From an uncultured Caryophanales bacterium (lineage in GTDB: Bacteria > Bacillota_I > Bacilli_A > RFN20 > CAG-449): 63,732 bases of DNA. Positions within the stretch are counted from its first letter, which is position 1; each line of letters opens with the position of its first letter. The position numbers and the translations under genes are program-made. Location of the stretch: positions 1 through 63,732 of the forward strand of contig CAMCEE010000011.1 of NCBI GenBank assembly GCA_945873815.1. The letters run 5' to 3'. The notes beneath the pieces were generated by a model. That model was not told the DNA's origin and did no database searches. It worked only from the letters and a program-made list of their open reading frames with translations. This document shows, one piece after another, positions 20,719 to 31,838 of this stretch.

Positions 20719-20731
20719 ATTCATATTTGAA
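20719..20731 (+). repeat. Left 13-bp direct repeat flanking the cassette
   Basis: ATTCATATTTGAA occurs here and again at 22993-23005, each time exactly one base outside a 22-bp terminal inverted repeat. The simplest reading is a target-site duplication made when the cassette inserted. Confidence 0.6.
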
Positions 20732-20732
20732 C

Positions 20733-20793
20733 CTCAAGTGACAAAGTAAATTCATTTTCTCACCCATTAACTGAAATTATTTTGTCACTTGAG
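20733..20793 (+). repeat. Left 61-bp quasi-palindromic end repeat
   Basis: Two 22-base arms (20733-20754 and 20772-20793) match at 20 of 22 positions around a 17-base loop beginning TTTTCT. By hand comparison it matches the right copy at 22931-22991 at about 50 of 61 positions in the same orientation. Confidence 0.8.
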
Positions 20794-20817
20794 ATTCGAA
20801 ATAATTCGAATCCTTTT
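20793..20817 (+). terminator. Rho-independent terminator just inside the left cassette end
   Basis: GATTCGAA and TTCGAATC form a perfect 8-bp stem with the loop ATAA, followed by CTTTTT. It would block read-through from the upstream operon into the cassette gene. Confidence 0.8.
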
Positions 20818-20897
20818 TAGCATCTATTTTATAGTAAAAAATCTCTTTTTTGATATAATAAAATAGAAATATTAGTTTTTAGGAGGCGCTTAATTAT

Positions 20898-22922
20898 ATG
20901 TATGACTTTTCATATGTAAAAGGAATTAATCCATCTTTATATGATGACTTATGCGATTACATTGATGCATGTAAATATAATTTAAAGACACCTATTTTGT
21001 TATTAGCAACAACGATTTTTGAAAAAGGAATTAAATTGTTTCTTTCCAATGAAGATAAAATAAGCAAATTTTTTGATTATGATCCTAATTTAACAATGAT
21101 GTGCTTAAGCAAAAATAAAAAGTATGAGTCTTCAAAAAACTATGTTAGAAGTAATATTAAGCTTAACTATGATGTAATAGTTTATTGTCGAGATAATTCT
21201 AATAATAAAAAACATGATTTAGCAAAAATCGAGAATGATGATTTATTTGATAAGCATGAAATTACAAAAGAAGTTTTTAAGTTACTTGTCTTTTTAAATA
21301 ATAGATATTGTACTAATAGTGTTCAAACGCCCAATTTTGAAATGATAAATGAATTATTTATAGATGATGACAACTCACAAAATAATAAAGAAAAAAATAA
21401 CGAACTAGAGAATCTTAAAAAAGAAATATCAAATATAAAAGACGTTTTAAATTTGGGTAAATTTAACCCAGAAAATATTGAATCATCTGTAGAAAAAGAT
21501 AGTCATAAATCAACTGAAGTAGATGATGCTGTTTTAAATTTAACCAGTGAAGAAACCCAAGATGAATTAGATAATTTTTGTGAACTAGAAACTGAAAATC
21601 GTATTAGAGAAGAAGAAATGACCAATAAAGATAAAATTTTTGAGTCTGTTTTAGAAGAAACTAGCATATCTAAACTAGAAAATGATGAAGAAATTATTTT
21701 AGATAAAGAAGACAATACCAAAGACCAAATTGTTTTATCTGAATCTAATAGCGAAGTAGAAAATACGATTAAAAATTATGATGATAATATTTTTGAAGAA
21801 GAAGTTAATAACTGTAATGAACTTTATACCGTACAAGAAGAGATGCATGATAATCCTCAAAGTGATAATGCTCTGATAGTGCTTTGCAAAAAATCAATAT
21901 TTGACATTCTTATTAATAATTCTATATCTTCTTCAGATAGTCTCTCTCATAAGTGCGCAGATGAAATAGAACAATCATTGAATAAAATTCTTCCTAAGGG
22001 ATTAAAAATAAAAAATACTTCTAATACTCATTGTTCCATTTCAAGCGAAGATTTAAAAATATCTGTATGTTCTAGTAAAAGAAAAAAATATAAAAATAAC
22101 AAAATATTAGCTTTTAGAGAATTTCTATTACGTATAATTCCAAAGGATTCTTGGCCTAAATATATGGCAATGAGATTACCAAGCGAAGAACTATATGAAT
22201 TTAATACAAACAACGATTTAATTTGGAAATGCCAAAAATCAATTTATGATGTTTTTGTGAAATATAATTTAAATGGTAATGTACTTCTTTCATATGAAGT
22301 TTGTGAAGATATTGAAAAATCATTGAAAGAAATTCTTCCACATGGCTTAATTGTTAAAATAAAGAATGGACATTGTTCAATTTCTAGCGAAGACTTAAAC
22401 ATAACTAAAAATTCTGCCTCTGGAATTAAAAATAATTACTTAACTGCATTTAGGTCTTTTGTAGTGCAACTTTTACCGATTAAAACTATCTCAAGTCAAA
22501 AACAAAAAAAACTATCCGCTGTTTCTTTTCCAAAAGTAGAAAACAAAGTGATTGGTAGTGAATATTTAGATGTTTGCAAAATTATGGCAAACGAAATTGT
22601 AAAAAAATATGGCGACGATTACTTCTTTTACTATAAATACGGAAAGCCATGTTTGAAAAAAAATAGAGCTCCTCATATAAATGATTTTAAAAATTTGGTT
22701 TATAGGCTAAATAAAATGCTAAAACTTGCCAATAAGATTTCAATTAATTTTGTTATTGATGTGAATTTTTCATACATAGAGATAAAGAAAATGAACTTTA
22801 TTATGTATTCGAATAAGTATACACATGGAGCTACAAAGAAAAAAAACTTTGGAATATCTCATTTAATTTGGTTGTTTTATTGTCAGATAATTAAAACTAG
22901 TGGTTATCTTCCAAAGAAATAA
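20898..22922 (+). CDS. Cassette protein of unknown function (674 aa) with internal duplication
   Basis: I do not recognise this protein. The N-terminal 140 residues (TPILLLATTIFEKGIKLFLS, then KKHDLAKIENDD and FKLLVFLNNRYC) are helical and loosely recall DUF4145/HEPN-type domains, though a canonical RxxxxH motif is not present (the spacing is R-x7-H). Residues about 150-320 are very acidic and probably disordered or coiled. Residues about 323-417 and 440-535 are two copies of one domain: both have a CxKSIxD start, an E-x(2,3)-SL-x-(K/E)-ILP-x-GL segment, HCSISSEDL and an AFR(E/S)F ending. A C-terminal 125-residue domain with FSYIEIKKMNFIMYS follows. AGGAGG precedes the ATG. It is the sole gene of the cassette, so it may be the mobility protein or its cargo. 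Confidence 0.75.
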   Translation: MYDFSYVKGINPSLYDDLCDYIDACKYNLKTPILLLATTIFEKGIKLFLSNEDKISKFFDYDPNLTMMCLSKNKKYESSKNYVRSNIKLNYDVIVYCRDNSNNKKHDLAKIENDDLFDKHEITKEVFKLLVFLNNRYCTNSVQTPNFEMINELFIDDDNSQNNKEKNNELENLKKEISNIKDVLNLGKFNPENIESSVEKDSHKSTEVDDAVLNLTSEETQDELDNFCELETENRIREEEMTNKDKIFESVLEETSISKLENDEEIILDKEDNTKDQIVLSESNSEVENTIKNYDDNIFEEEVNNCNELYTVQEEMHDNPQSDNALIVLCKKSIFDILINNSISSSDSLSHKCADEIEQSLNKILPKGLKIKNTSNTHCSISSEDLKISVCSSKRKKYKNNKILAFREFLLRIIPKDSWPKYMAMRLPSEELYEFNTNNDLIWKCQKSIYDVFVKYNLNGNVLLSYEVCEDIEKSLKEILPHGLIVKIKNGHCSISSEDLNITKNSASGIKNNYLTAFRSFVVQLLPIKTISSQKQKKLSAVSFPKVENKVIGSEYLDVCKIMANEIVKKYGDDYFFYYKYGKPCLKKNRAPHINDFKNLVYRLNKMLKLANKISINFVIDVNFSYIEIKKMNFIMYSNKYTHGATKKKNFGISHLIWLFYCQIIKTSGYLPKK

Positions 22923-22930
22923 AAATGAGT

Positions 22931-22991
22931 CTCAATTGATAGACTAAATTCATTTTCTTTCTTAATAACTGAATTTACTTTGTCACTTGAG
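22931..22991 (+). repeat. Right 61-bp quasi-palindromic end repeat
   Basis: Second copy of the end element, starting eight bases after the gene's stop codon. Its outer arm (22970-22991) is the exact reverse complement of the left outer arm, whereas its inner arm has diverged at several positions. This asymmetry suggests selection on the outer arms. Confidence 0.8.
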
Positions 22992-22992
22992 A

Positions 22993-23005
22993 ATTCATAT
23001 TTGAA
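22993..23005 (+). repeat. Right 13-bp direct repeat flanking the cassette
   Basis: ATTCATATTTGAA, identical to 20719-20731 and also one base from the terminal inverted repeat. Confidence 0.6.
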
Positions 23006-23104: not shown

Positions 23105-23890
23105 GTGGAAAATAATAAATACATTACAATCATCTCAAATCGAAAAAAAATGAATATAGAAATCAAATCAATTCTTTATATTCTTATGAAAAGGAAAATA
23201 TCTGAAATACATATTTTAGGTGGGAAAATCATTGAATCTAGAGTAACATTTTCAGATCTTATTTCCATGCTCGATGAGGATATGATTATTGTTTGTAGAG
23301 GATGTGCTGTTTCAGCTTTAGCAATACATAAGATTTCAAAAAAAATAGAATTATGTAATGGGGAAGAACTTGATTATACTATTAGAAAAAAGAAACAACT
23401 CATTCAAGAATTGCAAAATAAAAAACAAAGAATATTAAATAGTCTTTTTAAAGATAGTCGCGATTTACCAAATGGAGAATATCCTAATTACTATTCTAGT
23501 TTTGATAAAATGCCGTTTGCTTTTGCTGATATTGAATTAGTATTTAATGAAGAAAAAAAGGCAATTGACTGGATATTTCGATATGGGAATAAAGCACTTT
23601 CTAAAATAGAAAGAACGCCTTTAGATGTTTTAATCGGAAACTCATTTAGTAATGTATTTCCTAATATGGATTCGAAGTGGCTACTATGTTATGAAAGAGT
23701 AGTATTATATGGAGAAACCTTAGAATTAATGGATTATAGTCCAGAGATTGATACATATTTAAAGATTATATGTTTCCCTACATTCAAAGGACATTGTGGC
23801 TGTATTCTTTTTGATCTTCAAGATATACGATTGACTCAATATAGTGAAAATTCTAAGAAGATAGTAAAAACATATTTTGATAAGATATAA
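23105..23890 (+). CDS. LytTR-PAS regulator
   Basis: A 261-residue protein. Residues about 5-95 resemble the LytTR DNA-binding domain: KYITIISNRKKMNIEIKSIL, then VTFSDLISMLDEDMIIVCRG and CAVSALAIHKI. Residues about 130-250 look like a PAS sensor: AFADIELVFNEEKKAIDWIF, then YGNKALSKIERTPLDVLIGN and a C-terminal CFPTFKGHCGCILFDLQDI. LytTR domains bind DNA as regulators, usually at the C-terminus of response regulators, so the N-terminal position with a PAS behind it is unusual. The start is a GTG without a clear ribosome site; an ATG at 23150 would cut into the domain. It lies just upstream of the giant LRR gene. Confidence 0.7.
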   Translation: MENNKYITIISNRKKMNIEIKSILYILMKRKISEIHILGGKIIESRVTFSDLISMLDEDMIIVCRGCAVSALAIHKISKKIELCNGEELDYTIRKKKQLIQELQNKKQRILNSLFKDSRDLPNGEYPNYYSSFDKMPFAFADIELVFNEEKKAIDWIFRYGNKALSKIERTPLDVLIGNSFSNVFPNMDSKWLLCYERVVLYGETLELMDYSPEIDTYLKIICFPTFKGHCGCILFDLQDIRLTQYSENSKKIVKTYFDKI

Positions 23891-23954: not shown

Positions 23955-24095
23955 GTCGTTTCGTACCGTTTTAAACGTTGTTTTGTACCATCTAAAATAT
24001 TTTTTTTTGGATTGCTTGTCTCCTTTATTTAATATCAATATAATATTGAAAGTTGAAATGAATAGATATTTGTTTTGATTATATGGAGGATTACA

Positions 24096-27000
24096 ATGAA
24101 GATAAAGATATTATTGGCCATACTGGCTGCTATTGCATGCTGTACAATTACTGTTCTCTCAATTGTTTTAAGTTTAAAACCCCATGAACATACATATGAG
24201 AAAGAAGTAACTGCACCTACTTGTTTGAATCAAGGCTACACTGTGTATACTTGTACCGAATGTAAGTATTCTTATACAAGTGATTATGTGGAAGCTCTTG
24301 GTCACGATTATACTAATTACACTTCCGATAATAATGCAACATGTACTAAAGATGGTACAAAGACTGCTCCTTGTAATCGCGAAGGGTGTAATGAACATAA
24401 TACTATTGCTGATGAAGGAAGTAAGTTAGGGCACCTTTTTACTAACTATGTTTCTGATAATAACGCAACATGTACTAAAGATGGTACAAAGACTGCTCCT
24501 TGTAATCACGAAGGATGTAATGAACATAGTACGATCGCAGATGAAGGAACAAAACTTGAACATGAGTTAACTCACGTTGGAGCAAAAGAATCTACATGTA
24601 CTGAAATTGGATGGGATGAACATGATGAATGTATTCATTGTGATTTTTCAACTGCTAATTATGTGCCTGCAAAAGGACATACATATACAGATTGGATAAT
24701 CGACTCTGAAGCTACATGTACAACTGATGGAATGAAACATAGAGATTGTACTATTTGTCATGAAACTGTCGAAACTAGAGTGATAAATAAATATGATCAT
24801 AATTTGATTCATCATGATGGTAAGGAACCAACTTGTACAGAAATTGGATGGGAAGCATACGATGAATGTTCACGTGGTGATTATACTTCCTATGTTGAAC
24901 TCTCTGCAAAAGGACACACAAGCAGTGATTGGATTGTTGGAAAAGAAACAACTTGTGAAGAAAGCGGATATAGATATAAGGAATGCACTGCTTGTCATGC
25001 AATTCTTGAAAGAGAAGATTTTGAACCTTTAGGTCACAATTTGACTCATTATGAAGGTAAAGAAGCAACTTGTACAGAGATTGGATGGGAAGCATATGAT
25101 GCATGTTCTCGTTGTGAACATACAACATACAAAGAACTACCTGCAAAAGGTCATTCTCCTTCTACTCCAGTAAGTGAAAATCTAGTTGAAGCAACATGTT
25201 TAGAAGGTGGACATTACGATAGTGTAGTTTATTGTTCATCTTGTCATGAAGAACTGAGTAGAGAATATAAAACAATTGACCCACTTGGTCATAGTTTTAC
25301 ACACTATATATCAAATAACGATGCAACAGTTACAAGTGATGGAACTAAAACTGCAACTTGTGACCGAGATGGATGTGATGTAACTGATACAGTAACTGAT
25401 TATGGTACGATGATTGGTCACGTTTTTGGTGAACCAACATGGGTATGGACAGATTATGGAAATGTAAAAGCAAATTTCACTTGTACTATATGCGAAGAAG
25501 AACATATAGAAAGTTATGCTGCAACAATTTCTAGTGAAATCACATTATCTCCTACTTGTGAAAAAAGTGGAGAAAGAACATATACTGCAAAGATAGTATT
25601 GGCTGGCGTTGAATATTCCGATACAAGAAAAGAGAACGTTGATTCTCTTGGTCATGAATATAAAGTTGTATGGGTATGGACAGGATACGAAAGTGCTAAA
25701 GCTACATTTACTTGTATTCACGATAATAATCATATTGAAGAAAGAGTAGCACCTATTGATAACATTACAAACGAAATTACTACACCAGCAACATGTTTAG
25801 AAGAAGGAGAAAGAACATATACTGCAACAGTTACTCTTAATGAAACTGAATATACAAATACAAAGACAAAGACAATTGATGCAACAGGTCATACGTTACA
25901 TGATAATACATGTACTTCCTGTGGATATGATGCGGGTGGAAGTAAAGGCCTAAATATGGTTTTAAACGTAGAAACTAATAAATATACTCTTAAAGGAATC
26001 GGTACTTGTACAGATGTAGATATTGTCATTCCTTCATATTATGATGGATATCCAGTAGACACAATTGGAGAATATGCGTTTGAAGGTTGTGATGTAATTA
26101 ATAGTATCACTATCCCTGATGAAGTAAAAGCGATTAAAGAAGGTGCATTTAAAGGATGTTCAAGTCTTACTAGTATTACACTTAGTAGTAATATTACTTC
26201 ACTTGAGAGATATCTCTTTCAATATTGTAATAAACTAAAAAATATAGTCATCCCTGAAGGGGTAACTATGATTAAAGATCATGCATTTGATGGTTGTAAA
26301 TCATTAGAATCCATTTCTTTTCCAACGTCTTTAATAGAAATAGGAGAATATGCATTCAGTAATGCTAAATCTTTAAAGAATGTTATTATACCTAATGGGG
26401 TAAAAACAATTAAAACTAATGCATTCAGAGAATGTAGTGACTTAATAAGCGTAGAATTGCCAGATTCTATTACTGAACTAGGCACTTATACTTTCTATTC
26501 ATGTTTCAAACTTGAAAGTGTAAATATTCCTAATTGCTTAAAAGAAATACCTGTTGGTGCATTTACTCATTGTTCCAAGTTGAAAGAAGTAAAAATGGGA
26601 GAAAACGTCGAAGTAATTAATCATTCTGCATTCTTTAATTGTTCTTCTCTTGAGAATATAGAATTCTCAGATAAATTAACCAAAATTGATTTTCAAGCAT
26701 TCTTGAATTGTACCTCATTATTGACTATTACTTTCCCGGAGAGTTTAAAAGAATTAGGTGGAGTAGTATTTGAAAATTGTACCGGACTTACAAGTGTTAT
26801 TATTAATAAAAACCTAAGTAAAATGGGCGATTCTGTTTTCCAAGGTTGTACAAATATTAAAAAAGTAGTTGTAAACGGATCAGTAATTGGTAACTCTGCT
26901 TTTTCGGGATGTAGTTTTCTTGATGATTTAACTTTAGCAGAAGGGTTGATTTCAATTGGTAATACAGCATTTAAAGATTGTTCATCTATTGTTACAATTG

Positions 27001-30000
27001 TTCTTCCAGAAAGCATTAAAACAATAGGAGATAATGCGTTTGAGGGTTGTAATGCAATCGAATATACAATTCATAATAATGCACAATATATGACGATGGG
27101 TTCTAATACTCTTGCAATCTTAATAAAAACATTAGATAAGAGTATTACATCGTTCAATATTTTGCCAAATACAAAAATTATTTCTGATTATGCATTTGCT
27201 GATTGTGAATCACTAACATCTATTACTATTCCGGATAATATATATTCAATTGGTAAATATGTATTCTCTAATTGTTCATCTCTTTCAACTATTTCAATTG
27301 GAAAAGGAGTTAATATAATAGGAGATTATGCATTTAATAATTGTAGATTTTCAAGTATTGTAATTCCTGATAATGTTACTATAATTGGTGAAGGAATGTT
27401 TAGTAATTGTATTAATCTAACAGATGTAACTTTTGGAGATAGTGTAACTTCTATTGGACCTAAAGTATTTGCATCATGTACTGCACTTGAGACTATTACT
27501 TTACCAGATAATATTACTGAAATAGCGGAAGGAACATTTAAAGATTGCGTATCATTAAAAACTATTAACGTACACAATAGAATTACAAAAATTGGTATGC
27601 AAGCATTTATGAATTGCTCTTCGCTTACTAATGTTACAATTGGAAACGGTGTTTCAATAATTGATAATGAAGCTTTCCGTGGATGTTCTGCACTTACAAA
27701 TATTACACTTCAAGATAGTATTTTCACAATTAATGAGGGTGTATTTAGAGATTGTTCATCATTATTGAATATTGATTTACCTGCAAGTTTATCAGTAATT
27801 GAGAAAAATGCATTCTCGTCTTGTACCTCTTTAGAAAGTATAGAACTACCAGAAACATTAACTACTATTAACGATAGTGCATTCTCTAATTGTTCATCTC
27901 TATCAAATCTTGTTTTACCAGATAGTTTGAGTTTTTTAGGTGATAAAGCCTTTATGAGTTGTACTTCATTAAGAAGTATTGATATAAATACGACTGGGAC
28001 TTATTCATTCTCAAAATGTTACGCTTTAACAGATATAACGTTTAGAGAAAATCTTACTAATATCTCATCGGGTGCTTTTAGTAGCTGTACTTCATTAACA
28101 AAACTAATTATTCCTAGTAATGTAAAAGAGATTTCATCTTTCGCATTTGAATATTGTAATTCTTTAAATAGTGTAACGATTGGTACAGGAGTGGAAAAGA
28201 TTAATAATAATGCTTTCTATGATTGTCATAATTTACTTGAAGTCATTAACTTATCTTCTTTAGAAATAAAAGCAGGAGATACTAATAATGGAAAAGTTGG
28301 TTACTATGCTAGTGAGATTATTACTTCTTTAGATACTCCATCAAGAACTACAACAGATGCTAATGGATATGTTTTCTATAAGGCACAAGATGGAACAAAC
28401 TATTTGATTAATTATATCGGTAATGATAAAAATCTTATTCTACCTACATTAGGCGGAGGAGAAACATATAAAATTAGAGAATATGCATTCTTTGATAGAA
28501 ATGATATTGAAAGCGTAGTAATACCTAATTGCGTTACATCTATTGAAAACAATTCTTTCAAAGCATGTAAGAATCTTTATTCAATAACAATTCATGAAAG
28601 TTTAACAGAAATACAATCGTATGCTTTCTATGATTGTCATCGATTAGTTGAAGTCAATAACTATTCGACATTGAATATTGATGGATCTAATAAGTATGGA
28701 TTACTCGGATTAAATGCATTATATATCAATACATCAAAAGATGTAGGAACGAAAATCACAAAAGATGAAAACGGATTTGTTTTCTTTGAAAACGAAGGAA
28801 AGATTTACTTAATTGATTATAGAGGAAATAAGAATAATATCATTTTACCTACATTAAGTGATGGAAAGAAATATGAAATCAATAAATATGCATTCCTTAA
28901 CTATTCTCATTTGCAAACTGTAGAAATTCCTTCCTGTGTTACTTCAATTGGAGTACAATCATTTGACAGTTGTACATCTTTAATAAGAATAACAATTCCA
29001 GAAAGTGTAACTAGTATTGGAGAAAAAGCATTCTATTATTGTGGTGCTCTTGAAGAAGTAACAATAAACGGTGGGGAAATAGGTGAGTATGCATTCGCAA
29101 GATGCACATCAATGAAACGTATCATTATTAATGGAGGAACAATTGGTGACTATGCATTTAGCGATGATTCTACGTCTGCGAAAAATTATAATCTCAAAAC
29201 ATTAATTATTAATGAAGGAGTTACATCAATAGGTGAATTTGCGTTTAGTAATTGCGCATCTCTTACGGAACTTATTTTACCTTCAACTTTAACTTCAATT
29301 GGGACTTCTGCATTTAAGGGATGCACGAATATTTCTCGTTTGGTTATTAAATCAGGAACAATAGGAACTTATGCTTTTAGTGATTCTTCTTATTCTAACA
29401 TATGTAGTTCAATTACAGATTTAACATTAGGGAATGGAGTCACATCAATAGGTGATTATGCGTTTAGTAATTGCTCTAATATTAGCAACTTTACAATTCC
29501 AGATAGTGTAACTTCAATAGGTGATAGTGCATTCTATGGATGCAGTTCAATAACGAATCTCATCATTCCAAACAGTGTCGAATCTATTGGAAAGGATGCT
29601 TTCAGAAGTTGTAATGCTATTGAAACGTTACAATGTAGTGCGAACACAATAGGCAAAAATGCGTTCTCTAGTTGTAATGAACTATTAAATGTAACAATCA
29701 ATCGTGGAACAATTGGAGAAGGTGCTTTCTTATACTGTAGTAAACTAGCTAATGTAACAATCGGAGAAAATGTTACTGCTATCGGTAATATTGCTTTCAA
29801 GGGATGTTCTTCTCTTGAAAGAGCAGTTATTCAAGGAGGTACAATAGGAGAATATGCTTTCAGTTATGATAAATACACAAATAATAATACTGATTATTGC
29901 ATTTCTCTAAAAGAAGTGATCCTAGGGAATAATGTCACATCGATTGGACACCATGCTTTCTATAACTGTTTTTCTCTTGAAGTAATAGAACTTCCAAGTA

Positions 30001-31838
30001 GTATTGAGGCAATTAGTGATTATACATTTAGTGGATGTACTTCATTAAGAAATATTACAATTCCGTCTAGCGTTACTTCTATTGGTGAAGAAGTCTTCTT
30101 GGATTGCAAAATGTTAGAAAGTGTTTCTATTCCAGATAGTGTTATTTCGATTGGGAATAGAGCTTTCTATAATTGTACTAATCTTAAGAATATTATTCTT
30201 TCAAATAATATTAATACAATTGGATCTGAAGCATTCAGAAATTGTTCTTCTCTTAGAGAAATAATAATTCCAGATTCAGTAACATCTCTTGGTAATACTG
30301 TTTTCTATGGATGTTATTCATTAAAATCTGTTCATATTGGCAGTGGCTTAAATAATATTCCAAATTATACATTTGCATATTGTAAATCATTACCAAGCAT
30401 AGTGATTCCAAGTAATATTACAAACATTTATGGCTATGCATTTGATGGATGTATAAATCTTCTTGAAGTTTATAATTATTCTACGGCATTCACAATCAAA
30501 AAAGGCTTAGAAAATCTCGGGAATGTTGGAAAATATGCACTCGATGTATATAATAGGCCTGAAACTACTCCACCAAGTAAATATACGACTGATGCAAATG
30601 GTTTTATCTTCTATATAAGTGATGACAAAATATATCTAACTGGCTATACTGGTGATGCAACTGAACTAGAATTACCAGTTCTTGCAGATAATAAGACGTA
30701 TGAAATTATAGATTATGCATTTAATAAATGTGAAAACATTATAAGGGTTGTGATTCCTAATTGTGTAACAGCAATTAAGTCTTATGCATTTAATGATTGT
30801 ACATCTCTTGAAACTATAGAAATGAATAATAGTGTTACTTATATCGGTTTAGGTGCATTTGTAAACTGCATTTCATTAAAAAATGTCACTCTTTCAGAAG
30901 GAATTACTTCAATTCCTGATCTAATATTCTCTAATTGTAGCTCTTTAGAAAATCTTACAATTCCTAATGGAGTAACATCAATAGGAGTTAAGGCATTCCA
31001 TGAATGTAGTAGCCTTAAAAATATAACTCTTCCAGAAGGAGTTACAGAGATTAAAGACTGTATGTTTTATGGATGTAGTAGCCTAACAAAAGTAGAATTT
31101 AAGGGTGAAATTACATCAATTGGTTATCAAGCGTTCTACAAATGCCATAGTTTAGCAAATATAATGATCCCAGAAAGTGTTAATCTTATTAAAAAAGAGG
31201 CATTCTATGAGTGTAAACAAATTACAAGTATAGTAATACCTAGTGGGGTTACAACGATCAGTGAAAAATTGTTCTATAATTGTTCTTCATTAAGTAGTAT
31301 AACATTACCAGAAGGTATTACTTCTATCGAGGGTTATGCGTTTGCATACTGTACTTCATTAGAAAGTATTGTATTGCCAAATGGAATAACATCCATGTTA
31401 TCAGGTGCATTCTTTGGTTGTACTTCACTAAAAGAAATTAATCTTCCAGAAGGAATTAGTTCAATCAATTATTCATTATTCAAAAATTGTAGTTCATTAA
31501 CGAAGATTATTATTCCTAGTGGAGTAACAAAAATTGAAGACTATGTATTTGAAGGATGCTCTGGCCTTACATATGTTGTATTCCCAAATAGTGTGGAAAA
31601 AGTAGGTAGTTATTGTTTCAATGGTAATAATAATCTAAAAATAGTATATTATACAGGCACAAGTGAGGAATGGGGAAAAATTAGTTTTGGAAGTAGTAAT
31701 TATTCTATTACCACAAGCAATTCGACGAAATACTATTATTCTGAAACTGAACCTTCATTAAACGAAGAAGGTACAGCATATAATGGTAATTATTGGCATT
31801 ATGTCAATGATGAAATCGTTGTTTGGGAGAAAGAATAA
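24096..31838 (+). CDS. Giant BspA-like leucine-rich-repeat surface protein (2,580 aa)
   Basis: The N-terminus has a hydrophobic export segment (KIKILLAILAAIACCTITVL). Residues about 30-600 contain repeated Cys-rich modules of the form ATCTxxGxxxxxCxxC...LGH, resembling small metal- or disulfide-stabilised repeats. From about residue 620 to 2,520 there are several dozen BspA-type LRR_5 units (LTSITIPDSVTSIGDSAF and variants). Three spacer modules interrupt them near residues 1395-1455, 1535-1590 and 2135-2198, each with an NG(Y/F)(V/I)F segment and a GN/GD-LxLP strand. The C-terminus YYTGTSEEWGKISFG is typical. No LPXTG or other anchor is visible, so N-terminal membrane attachment is likely. 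GGAGG lies before the ATG; a TTG further upstream has no site. BspA-like proteins mediate adhesion in other bacteria. Confidence 0.9.
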   Translation: MKIKILLAILAAIACCTITVLSIVLSLKPHEHTYEKEVTAPTCLNQGYTVYTCTECKYSYTSDYVEALGHDYTNYTSDNNATCTKDGTKTAPCNREGCNEHNTIADEGSKLGHLFTNYVSDNNATCTKDGTKTAPCNHEGCNEHSTIADEGTKLEHELTHVGAKESTCTEIGWDEHDECIHCDFSTANYVPAKGHTYTDWIIDSEATCTTDGMKHRDCTICHETVETRVINKYDHNLIHHDGKEPTCTEIGWEAYDECSRGDYTSYVELSAKGHTSSDWIVGKETTCEESGYRYKECTACHAILEREDFEPLGHNLTHYEGKEATCTEIGWEAYDACSRCEHTTYKELPAKGHSPSTPVSENLVEATCLEGGHYDSVVYCSSCHEELSREYKTIDPLGHSFTHYISNNDATVTSDGTKTATCDRDGCDVTDTVTDYGTMIGHVFGEPTWVWTDYGNVKANFTCTICEEEHIESYAATISSEITLSPTCEKSGERTYTAKIVLAGVEYSDTRKENVDSLGHEYKVVWVWTGYESAKATFTCIHDNNHIEERVAPIDNITNEITTPATCLEEGERTYTATVTLNETEYTNTKTKTIDATGHTLHDNTCTSCGYDAGGSKGLNMVLNVETNKYTLKGIGTCTDVDIVIPSYYDGYPVDTIGEYAFEGCDVINSITIPDEVKAIKEGAFKGCSSLTSITLSSNITSLERYLFQYCNKLKNIVIPEGVTMIKDHAFDGCKSLESISFPTSLIEIGEYAFSNAKSLKNVIIPNGVKTIKTNAFRECSDLISVELPDSITELGTYTFYSCFKLESVNIPNCLKEIPVGAFTHCSKLKEVKMGENVEVINHSAFFNCSSLENIEFSDKLTKIDFQAFLNCTSLLTITFPESLKELGGVVFENCTGLTSVIINKNLSKMGDSVFQGCTNIKKVVVNGSVIGNSAFSGCSFLDDLTLAEGLISIGNTAFKDCSSIVTIVLPESIKTIGDNAFEGCNAIEYTIHNNAQYMTMGSNTLAILIKTLDKSITSFNILPNTKIISDYAFADCESLTSITIPDNIYSIGKYVFSNCSSLSTISIGKGVNIIGDYAFNNCRFSSIVIPDNVTIIGEGMFSNCINLTDVTFGDSVTSIGPKVFASCTALETITLPDNITEIAEGTFKDCVSLKTINVHNRITKIGMQAFMNCSSLTNVTIGNGVSIIDNEAFRGCSALTNITLQDSIFTINEGVFRDCSSLLNIDLPASLSVIEKNAFSSCTSLESIELPETLTTINDSAFSNCSSLSNLVLPDSLSFLGDKAFMSCTSLRSIDINTTGTYSFSKCYALTDITFRENLTNISSGAFSSCTSLTKLIIPSNVKEISSFAFEYCNSLNSVTIGTGVEKINNNAFYDCHNLLEVINLSSLEIKAGDTNNGKVGYYASEIITSLDTPSRTTTDANGYVFYKAQDGTNYLINYIGNDKNLILPTLGGGETYKIREYAFFDRNDIESVVIPNCVTSIENNSFKACKNLYSITIHESLTEIQSYAFYDCHRLVEVNNYSTLNIDGSNKYGLLGLNALYINTSKDVGTKITKDENGFVFFENEGKIYLIDYRGNKNNIILPTLSDGKKYEINKYAFLNYSHLQTVEIPSCVTSIGVQSFDSCTSLIRITIPESVTSIGEKAFYYCGALEEVTINGGEIGEYAFARCTSMKRIIINGGTIGDYAFSDDSTSAKNYNLKTLIINEGVTSIGEFAFSNCASLTELILPSTLTSIGTSAFKGCTNISRLVIKSGTIGTYAFSDSSYSNICSSITDLTLGNGVTSIGDYAFSNCSNISNFTIPDSVTSIGDSAFYGCSSITNLIIPNSVESIGKDAFRSCNAIETLQCSANTIGKNAFSSCNELLNVTINRGTIGEGAFLYCSKLANVTIGENVTAIGNIAFKGCSSLERAVIQGGTIGEYAFSYDKYTNNNTDYCISLKEVILGNNVTSIGHHAFYNCFSLEVIELPSSIEAISDYTFSGCTSLRNITIPSSVTSIGEEVFLDCKMLESVSIPDSVISIGNRAFYNCTNLKNIILSNNINTIGSEAFRNCSSLREIIIPDSVTSLGNTVFYGCYSLKSVHIGSGLNNIPNYTFAYCKSLPSIVIPSNITNIYGYAFDGCINLLEVYNYSTAFTIKKGLENLGNVGKYALDVYNRPETTPPSKYTTDANGFIFYISDDKIYLTGYTGDATELELPVLADNKTYEIIDYAFNKCENIIRVVIPNCVTAIKSYAFNDCTSLETIEMNNSVTYIGLGAFVNCISLKNVTLSEGITSIPDLIFSNCSSLENLTIPNGVTSIGVKAFHECSSLKNITLPEGVTEIKDCMFYGCSSLTKVEFKGEITSIGYQAFYKCHSLANIMIPESVNLIKKEAFYECKQITSIVIPSGVTTISEKLFYNCSSLSSITLPEGITSIEGYAFAYCTSLESIVLPNGITSMLSGAFFGCTSLKEINLPEGISSINYSLFKNCSSLTKIIIPSGVTKIEDYVFEGCSGLTYVVFPNSVEKVGSYCFNGNNNLKIVYYTGTSEEWGKISFGSSNYSITTSNSTKYYYSETEPSLNEEGTAYNGNYWHYVNDEIVVWEKE

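Follow-up and report, generated by a model that had tools for sequence, protein, structure and literature searches.

An orphan gene between IS30-type ends: a probable mobile insertion cassette in an uncultured Caryophanales bacterium

A 2,259-bp segment in a contig of 63,732 nucleotides from an uncultured Caryophanales bacterium (CAMCEE010000011.1; this whole stretch is called the window) is, with a probability of about 0.8, a non-autonomous mobile insertion cassette with ends taken from an IS30-type element and moved by the transposase of that element in trans. The segment has the IS-related terminal repeats and the target-site duplication of a mobile insertion cassette and no transposase gene inside. 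Its ends are of the IS30 type, its duplication has a length in keeping with that group, and a relative carries another gene packaged alike. The gene inside sits between two IS30-family ends, and can therefore probably be moved by an IS30 enzyme. A first-pass annotation of this DNA had proposed either a new class of mobile element or a captive cassette moved in trans; the second proposal agrees best with IS30-type ends that enclose no transposase, while the first gives way, as the ends belong to an IS30-family insertion sequence.

Structure of the cassette

The features of the cassette are listed in Table 1. The first-pass annotation had described exact inverted termini of 22 bases, a direct repeat lying one base outside each end and quasi-palindromic ends of 61 bp, and all three were borne out at the stated positions. 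The termini are the sole exact inverted 22-mer pair spaced 100-5000 bp apart in the whole window, and a flanking direct repeat of at least 13 bp arose in 1 of 20,000 random window placements with the same freedom of offset (5e-5). Both 61-bp ends fold much better than shuffled sequences (z -7.6 and -4.6). The two ends also match as direct repeats (81% over 67 bp), since the left unit, compared with the right one, is reversed around its loop. The cassette, of which a single copy was found, has a G+C content of 25% as against 30% for the window and contains one sizeable plus-strand gene. The hairpin directly inside the left end would, as judged from its sequence, screen this passenger gene from transcription entering from outside.

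Table 1. Features of the cassette, in positions of the window
Feature	Position	Strand	Remark
Left copy of target-site duplication, ATTCATATTTGAA	20719..20731	+	exact direct repeat of 22993-23005
Single extra base C at junction of duplication and left inverted repeat	20732	.	
Left 61-bp end: outer arm 20733-20754 (terminal inverted repeat), loop, inner arm	20733..20793	+	
Terminator-like hairpin directly inside left end: 8-bp stem, then CTTTTT	20793..20812	+	consensus match only
TATAAT, possible -10 box of an internal promoter	20854..20859	+	by inspection; not returned by promoter search; weak
AGGAGG ribosome-binding site for passenger gene	20881..20886	+	read directly from sequence
Passenger gene, 674 aa, intact orphan	20898..22922	+	
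Right 61-bp end: outer arm 22970-22991 (terminal inverted repeat)	22931..22991	-	
Single extra base A at junction of right inverted repeat and duplication	22992	.	
Right copy of target-site duplication, ATTCATATTTGAA	22993..23005	+	exact

Origin of the ends

Read from the outside in, the right end is identical at 58 of 61 positions to the left end of an IS30-type element on contig CAMELE010000057 (L144) of a Bacilli/Mollicutes MAG. The frame directly behind that end is a broken IS30-type transposase gene, and so the right end of the cassette, by sequence, is the left (promoter-side) end of an IS30-type element. Remnants of such an element are also present in the window's own genome (G000), on contigs C38 and C34. 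Contig C38 carries an end with the GGGTGAG loop that is found in the window's left end and, about 40 bp further on, a transposase frame with an HTH_38 domain, which contains an internal stop and continues on C34 through a shared overlap of 55 bp. The part on C34 matches the IS30 model NF033563 (6e-7) and is 33% identical over 151 residues to the complete 429-aa IS30 transposase of a related genome, G015. Two points speak against the main reading: the transposase genes that immediately follow ends of near identity (C38/C34 and L144) are both broken, and the intact IS30 transposase of the window's genome, on C20, has terminal repeats (GTTGAAAAACTAAATGC) that differ from those of the cassette.

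The terminal repeat GACAAAGTAAATTC / GAAAAAGTAAATTC is common to the cassette ends and the local IS30 group. Moreover, the left end of the IS30-type element, upstream of the transposase gene, has the same outer arm (GACAAAGTAAATTC) and inner inverted arm (GACAGACTAAATTC) as the cassette, so that the quasi-palindrome is a property of that end and is not peculiar to the cassette. The two arms are plausibly two transposase-binding sites. The loop of the window's left end is flipped in orientation relative to IS30-type left ends; this end matches the IS left end when read from the inside out, and its outer arm is identical to that of the right end over 22 bp. If a palindrome offers the transposase a site on both of its sides, it could function whichever way round it lies, and the exact 22-bp match would be accounted for if one end had been converted by the other; sequence conversion has been reported for insertions beside the ends of IS30 (PMC9333248). 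The cassette's gene is unrelated to the IS30-type DDE transposase, and the cassette is therefore filed as a derivative of IS30 ends and not as an IS30 element.

The first-pass annotation had regarded a 13-bp duplication as longer than most. A complete IS30 element in G015 (L123 852-2551), with related terminal repeats (...GAAAAAGTAAATTCC / CGTGAATTGAAAAAGTAAATTCC) and a 429-aa transposase above the NF033563 cut-off, is flanked by a 13-bp duplication, and seven further IS30 copies with terminal inverted repeats in the order have duplications of 13 bp (G012), 14 bp (G000 C20, G118, G170 and G100) and 16 bp (G038 and G016), some borders being uncertain by 1-2 bases because ends and flanks share letters. 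The IS30-type element IS1630 of Mycoplasma fermentans makes duplications of 16-26 bp (PMC3317919). With eight complete relatives in the order at 13-16 bp, and IS1630 at 16 bp or more, the repeat at the cassette is ordinary for its group.

The most likely mechanism is one in which the left end of an insertion sequence of the IS30 family gave rise to both 61-bp ends, and an IS30-type DDE transposase comes in trans from an autonomous element located elsewhere in the cell. This enzyme would recognise the outer repeats, with the inner arms probably bound as well, and would join the outer repeats to form a circular intermediate, the insertion of which at a new site would give rise to the 13-bp duplication. 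We infer movement in trans, the circular intermediate and a cognate transposase that is active in the lineage now or was so recently.

Related cassettes and dispersed ends

A second cassette with the same ends is present in the same genus, on contig C38 of G003 (L075 2124-3914). It carries an unrelated 429-aa AAA_14/DUF4143 ATPase gene (Pfam DUF4143 3e-30, AAA_14 4e-14; PADLOC candidate PDC-S01 4e-63) and is flanked by a different duplication, 11 bp long, with 1 extra base on one side and 3 on the other. The search for other copies with different flanks that the first-pass annotation had suggested therefore succeeded for the ends, around another gene, while the passenger gene itself was found nowhere else in the genomes and collections scanned. 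In the window's own genome, a 144-bp deletion-type miniature element (MITE) with such ends lies at 38869-39012 of contig C3, between copies of a 10-bp duplication with offsets of 2 and 2 bases.

The cassette may have originated from two independently mobile 61-bp palindromic MITEs that came to bracket a gene, a version of the main reading to which we would give somewhat under even odds. Since a transposase site faces outward on both sides of each palindrome, any gene between two of them would be movable as a unit. The 61-bp unit is found alone, 61/61 identical, in three species (G000 C3 56957-57017, G003 C53 5831-5891 and G005 C65 7854-7914) and in near-identical form in L134, at unrelated loci and with similarity stopping at the unit borders. 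In addition, the two units of the window are in direct orientation (+) the left one being reversed, which would be expected if orientation is irrelevant, and TIMEs, which derive from Tn3, build mosaic elements of this kind (PMC4133298). However, no target-site duplication was found at any of the four solo units, which could be remnants of larger elements or of one-ended events, and of the two ends of the G003 cassette one is simple, while the other is longer and different. A bolder proposal, which we consider rather improbable, is that the 61-bp palindromic IS30 end is the smallest mobile unit, spreads alone between species, and captures a gene wherever two units, in any orientation, enclose one. 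If this were true, these Bacilli would possess a gene-capture system, dependent on a transposase, by which orphan and defence-like genes are collected, with the orphan described here and the DUF4143/AAA ATPase (PADLOC candidate PDC-S01) of the relative as captured examples.

The distribution of the ends was assessed by scanning for GACAAAGTAAATTCNGTT with at most 1 mismatch and with the reversed motif as a control. There are 10 occurrences in the window's genome, compared with 0 for the control, and the motif is present in 8 of 18 genomes of the family, with counts of 18 in G010, 10 in G014 and 8 in G005 and at most 1 match to the control in any genome. Viral contigs gave no match to the motif. 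Matches in Anaerostipes, Flavobacterium, Chlorobiota and similar taxa look like chance and were set aside, the rest of the end being absent from them. Five contigs of the window's genome (C6, C9, C14, C33 and C21) end within a multi-copy element with related GACAAAGTAAATTCCG ends and an unassembled interior; assemblies break at multi-copy repeats, which is why several contigs of this genome stop inside the end motif. The right end of C6 and the left end of C21 (L014 and L011) share GTAAACTAACTTT outside the related ends, and, when joined from these contig ends, appear as if one multi-copy element had inserted in a hairpin, AAAGTTAGT-gtaa-ACTAACTTT, with a 13-bp duplication. Schlafen/AlbA_2 genes directly adjoin IS30-type ends in two genera (L020 1029-2366 in G000 C3 and L079 240-1580 in G010 C1), either by chance or as a further passenger.

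The passenger gene and its locus

The 674-aa protein has no family match in Pfam, NCBIfam, PADLOC or PHROGs (best E 0.03-0.4). As the first-pass annotation had noted for the only gene inside the cassette, no transposase or recombinase motif was found, in this case by comparison with Pfam, NCBIfam, PADLOC, PHROGs and PDB sequences. Homologues were absent from 57 sampled relatives and 278 other genomes of the order, and none were returned by a GTDB-wide pattern scan or from IMG/VR, phages, plasmids and PDB sequences. The C-terminal half contains two similar stretches that are 345 bp (~115 aa) apart, and AlphaFold prediction without an alignment gave no usable model (pLDDT 33). From the company that such cassettes keep, a defence or other accessory role might be guessed.

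The possibility that this orphan, for which no fold could be obtained, is itself a new kind of transposase and the element self-mobile is very unlikely. The ends are dispersed, yet the scans found the gene in no other place, and the same ends also border an IS30-type transposase in other elements and the unrelated ATPase in G003, which argues that the ends are independent of the 674-aa protein.

The neighbouring GGGtGRT locus, upstream of the cassette, was found in six of the seven other genomes of the genus, and both the cassette and the 674-aa gene are missing from all six. The DNA beyond the GGGtGRT gene in these relatives is too diverged to align, and for this reason no base-exact empty site can be given; the uninterrupted site would be expected to read ...TTTTTG-ATTCATATTTGAA-TGCTCATTC... 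On the right of the cassette there is a 261-aa open frame (23105-23890) with no Pfam family above the cut-off, and further downstream (24075-31838) a gene for a 2,587-aa protein of leucine-rich (BspA-like) repeats.

The same data bear on whether the gene is a fixed chromosomal one between two hairpin transcription terminators, an explanation that now appears highly improbable even though the ends fold strongly. The first-pass annotation had reserved this reading for the case of the same gene lying at the same locus in all relatives, and the gene is missing from 7 of 7 other genomes of its genus, including the six that have the GGGtGRT locus. Furthermore, exact 13-bp direct repeats lie just outside the ends, copies of the end motif are scattered and associated with IS30 transposases, and the same ends surround another gene in the G003 cassette.

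Least probable of all is movement of the cassette by a transposase of the IS1634 family, which is known for long, variable duplications. A 583-aa transposase of this family (NF033559, E 8e-103) does lie beside a matching end in G005 C30, with a 91% identical intact copy in G000 C1, but these elements have their own terminal repeats (CCTGAGTTTTACAGTTGTTATGCTACA), unlike the GACAAAGTAAATTC of the cassette, and their duplications are of 136 and 69 bp; IS1634 was accordingly rejected as a partner, the 136-bp duplication in G005 merely including an IS30-type end, which was duplicated because the IS1634 element inserted next to it. The elements measure 1,944 bp in G005 (L076 1459-3402) and 1,945 bp in G000 (L096 1699-3643), with flanking exact direct repeats of 136 bp and 69 bp, respectively.

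Comparison with known systems

IS30 of E. coli makes 2-bp duplications, as compared with the 13 bp at the cassette. IS30 minicircles that lack an intact transposase gene are able to insert if the enzyme is supplied in trans (PMC9333248), which is the mode proposed here for the cassette. IS1630, from the work of Calcutt et al. 1999, resembles the present system in the linkage of an IS30-type transposase to the ends, in its long duplications (16-26 bp, compared with 13-16 bp for the relatives of the cassette) and in its AT-rich, small-genome Firmicutes/Mollicutes hosts, and differs in encoding a transposase, whereas the cassette is without one and carries an unrelated gene (PMC3317919). IS1630 has also been reported to target inverted repeats (PMC3317919). 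Across 12 reconstructed sites in the present genomes there was little or no such preference (combined p 0.04 relative to window segments and 0.13 relative to shuffles), and the idea was dropped, the C6/C21 site being one striking case.

In structure the segment resembles mobile insertion cassettes such as MIC231 and mic-qnrD, in which a passenger replaces the transposase between IS inverted repeats flanked by a target duplication (PMC3913671). MIC231 is moved by IS231A, and its movement in trans has been demonstrated; its ends are those of IS231 (IS4 family; PMC3913671), whereas those of the cassette are IS30-type and palindromic. TIMEs are likewise miniature elements made from IS or transposon ends that can bracket and move other genes, with Tn3-type ends of 38 bp and duplications of 5-6 bp in place of the IS30-type 61-bp ends and 13-bp duplication of the cassette (PMC4133298).

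Significance

Cassettes of the MIC type are already known for IS231/IS4-type ends, and a limited literature search found no description of one with IS30-type palindromic ends and a long duplication. A lone gene without a known relative in one species was here probably brought in between transposon ends. The presence of two different passengers between the same ends in one genus suggests a recurrent route of single-gene movement that would be missed by transposase-based annotation.
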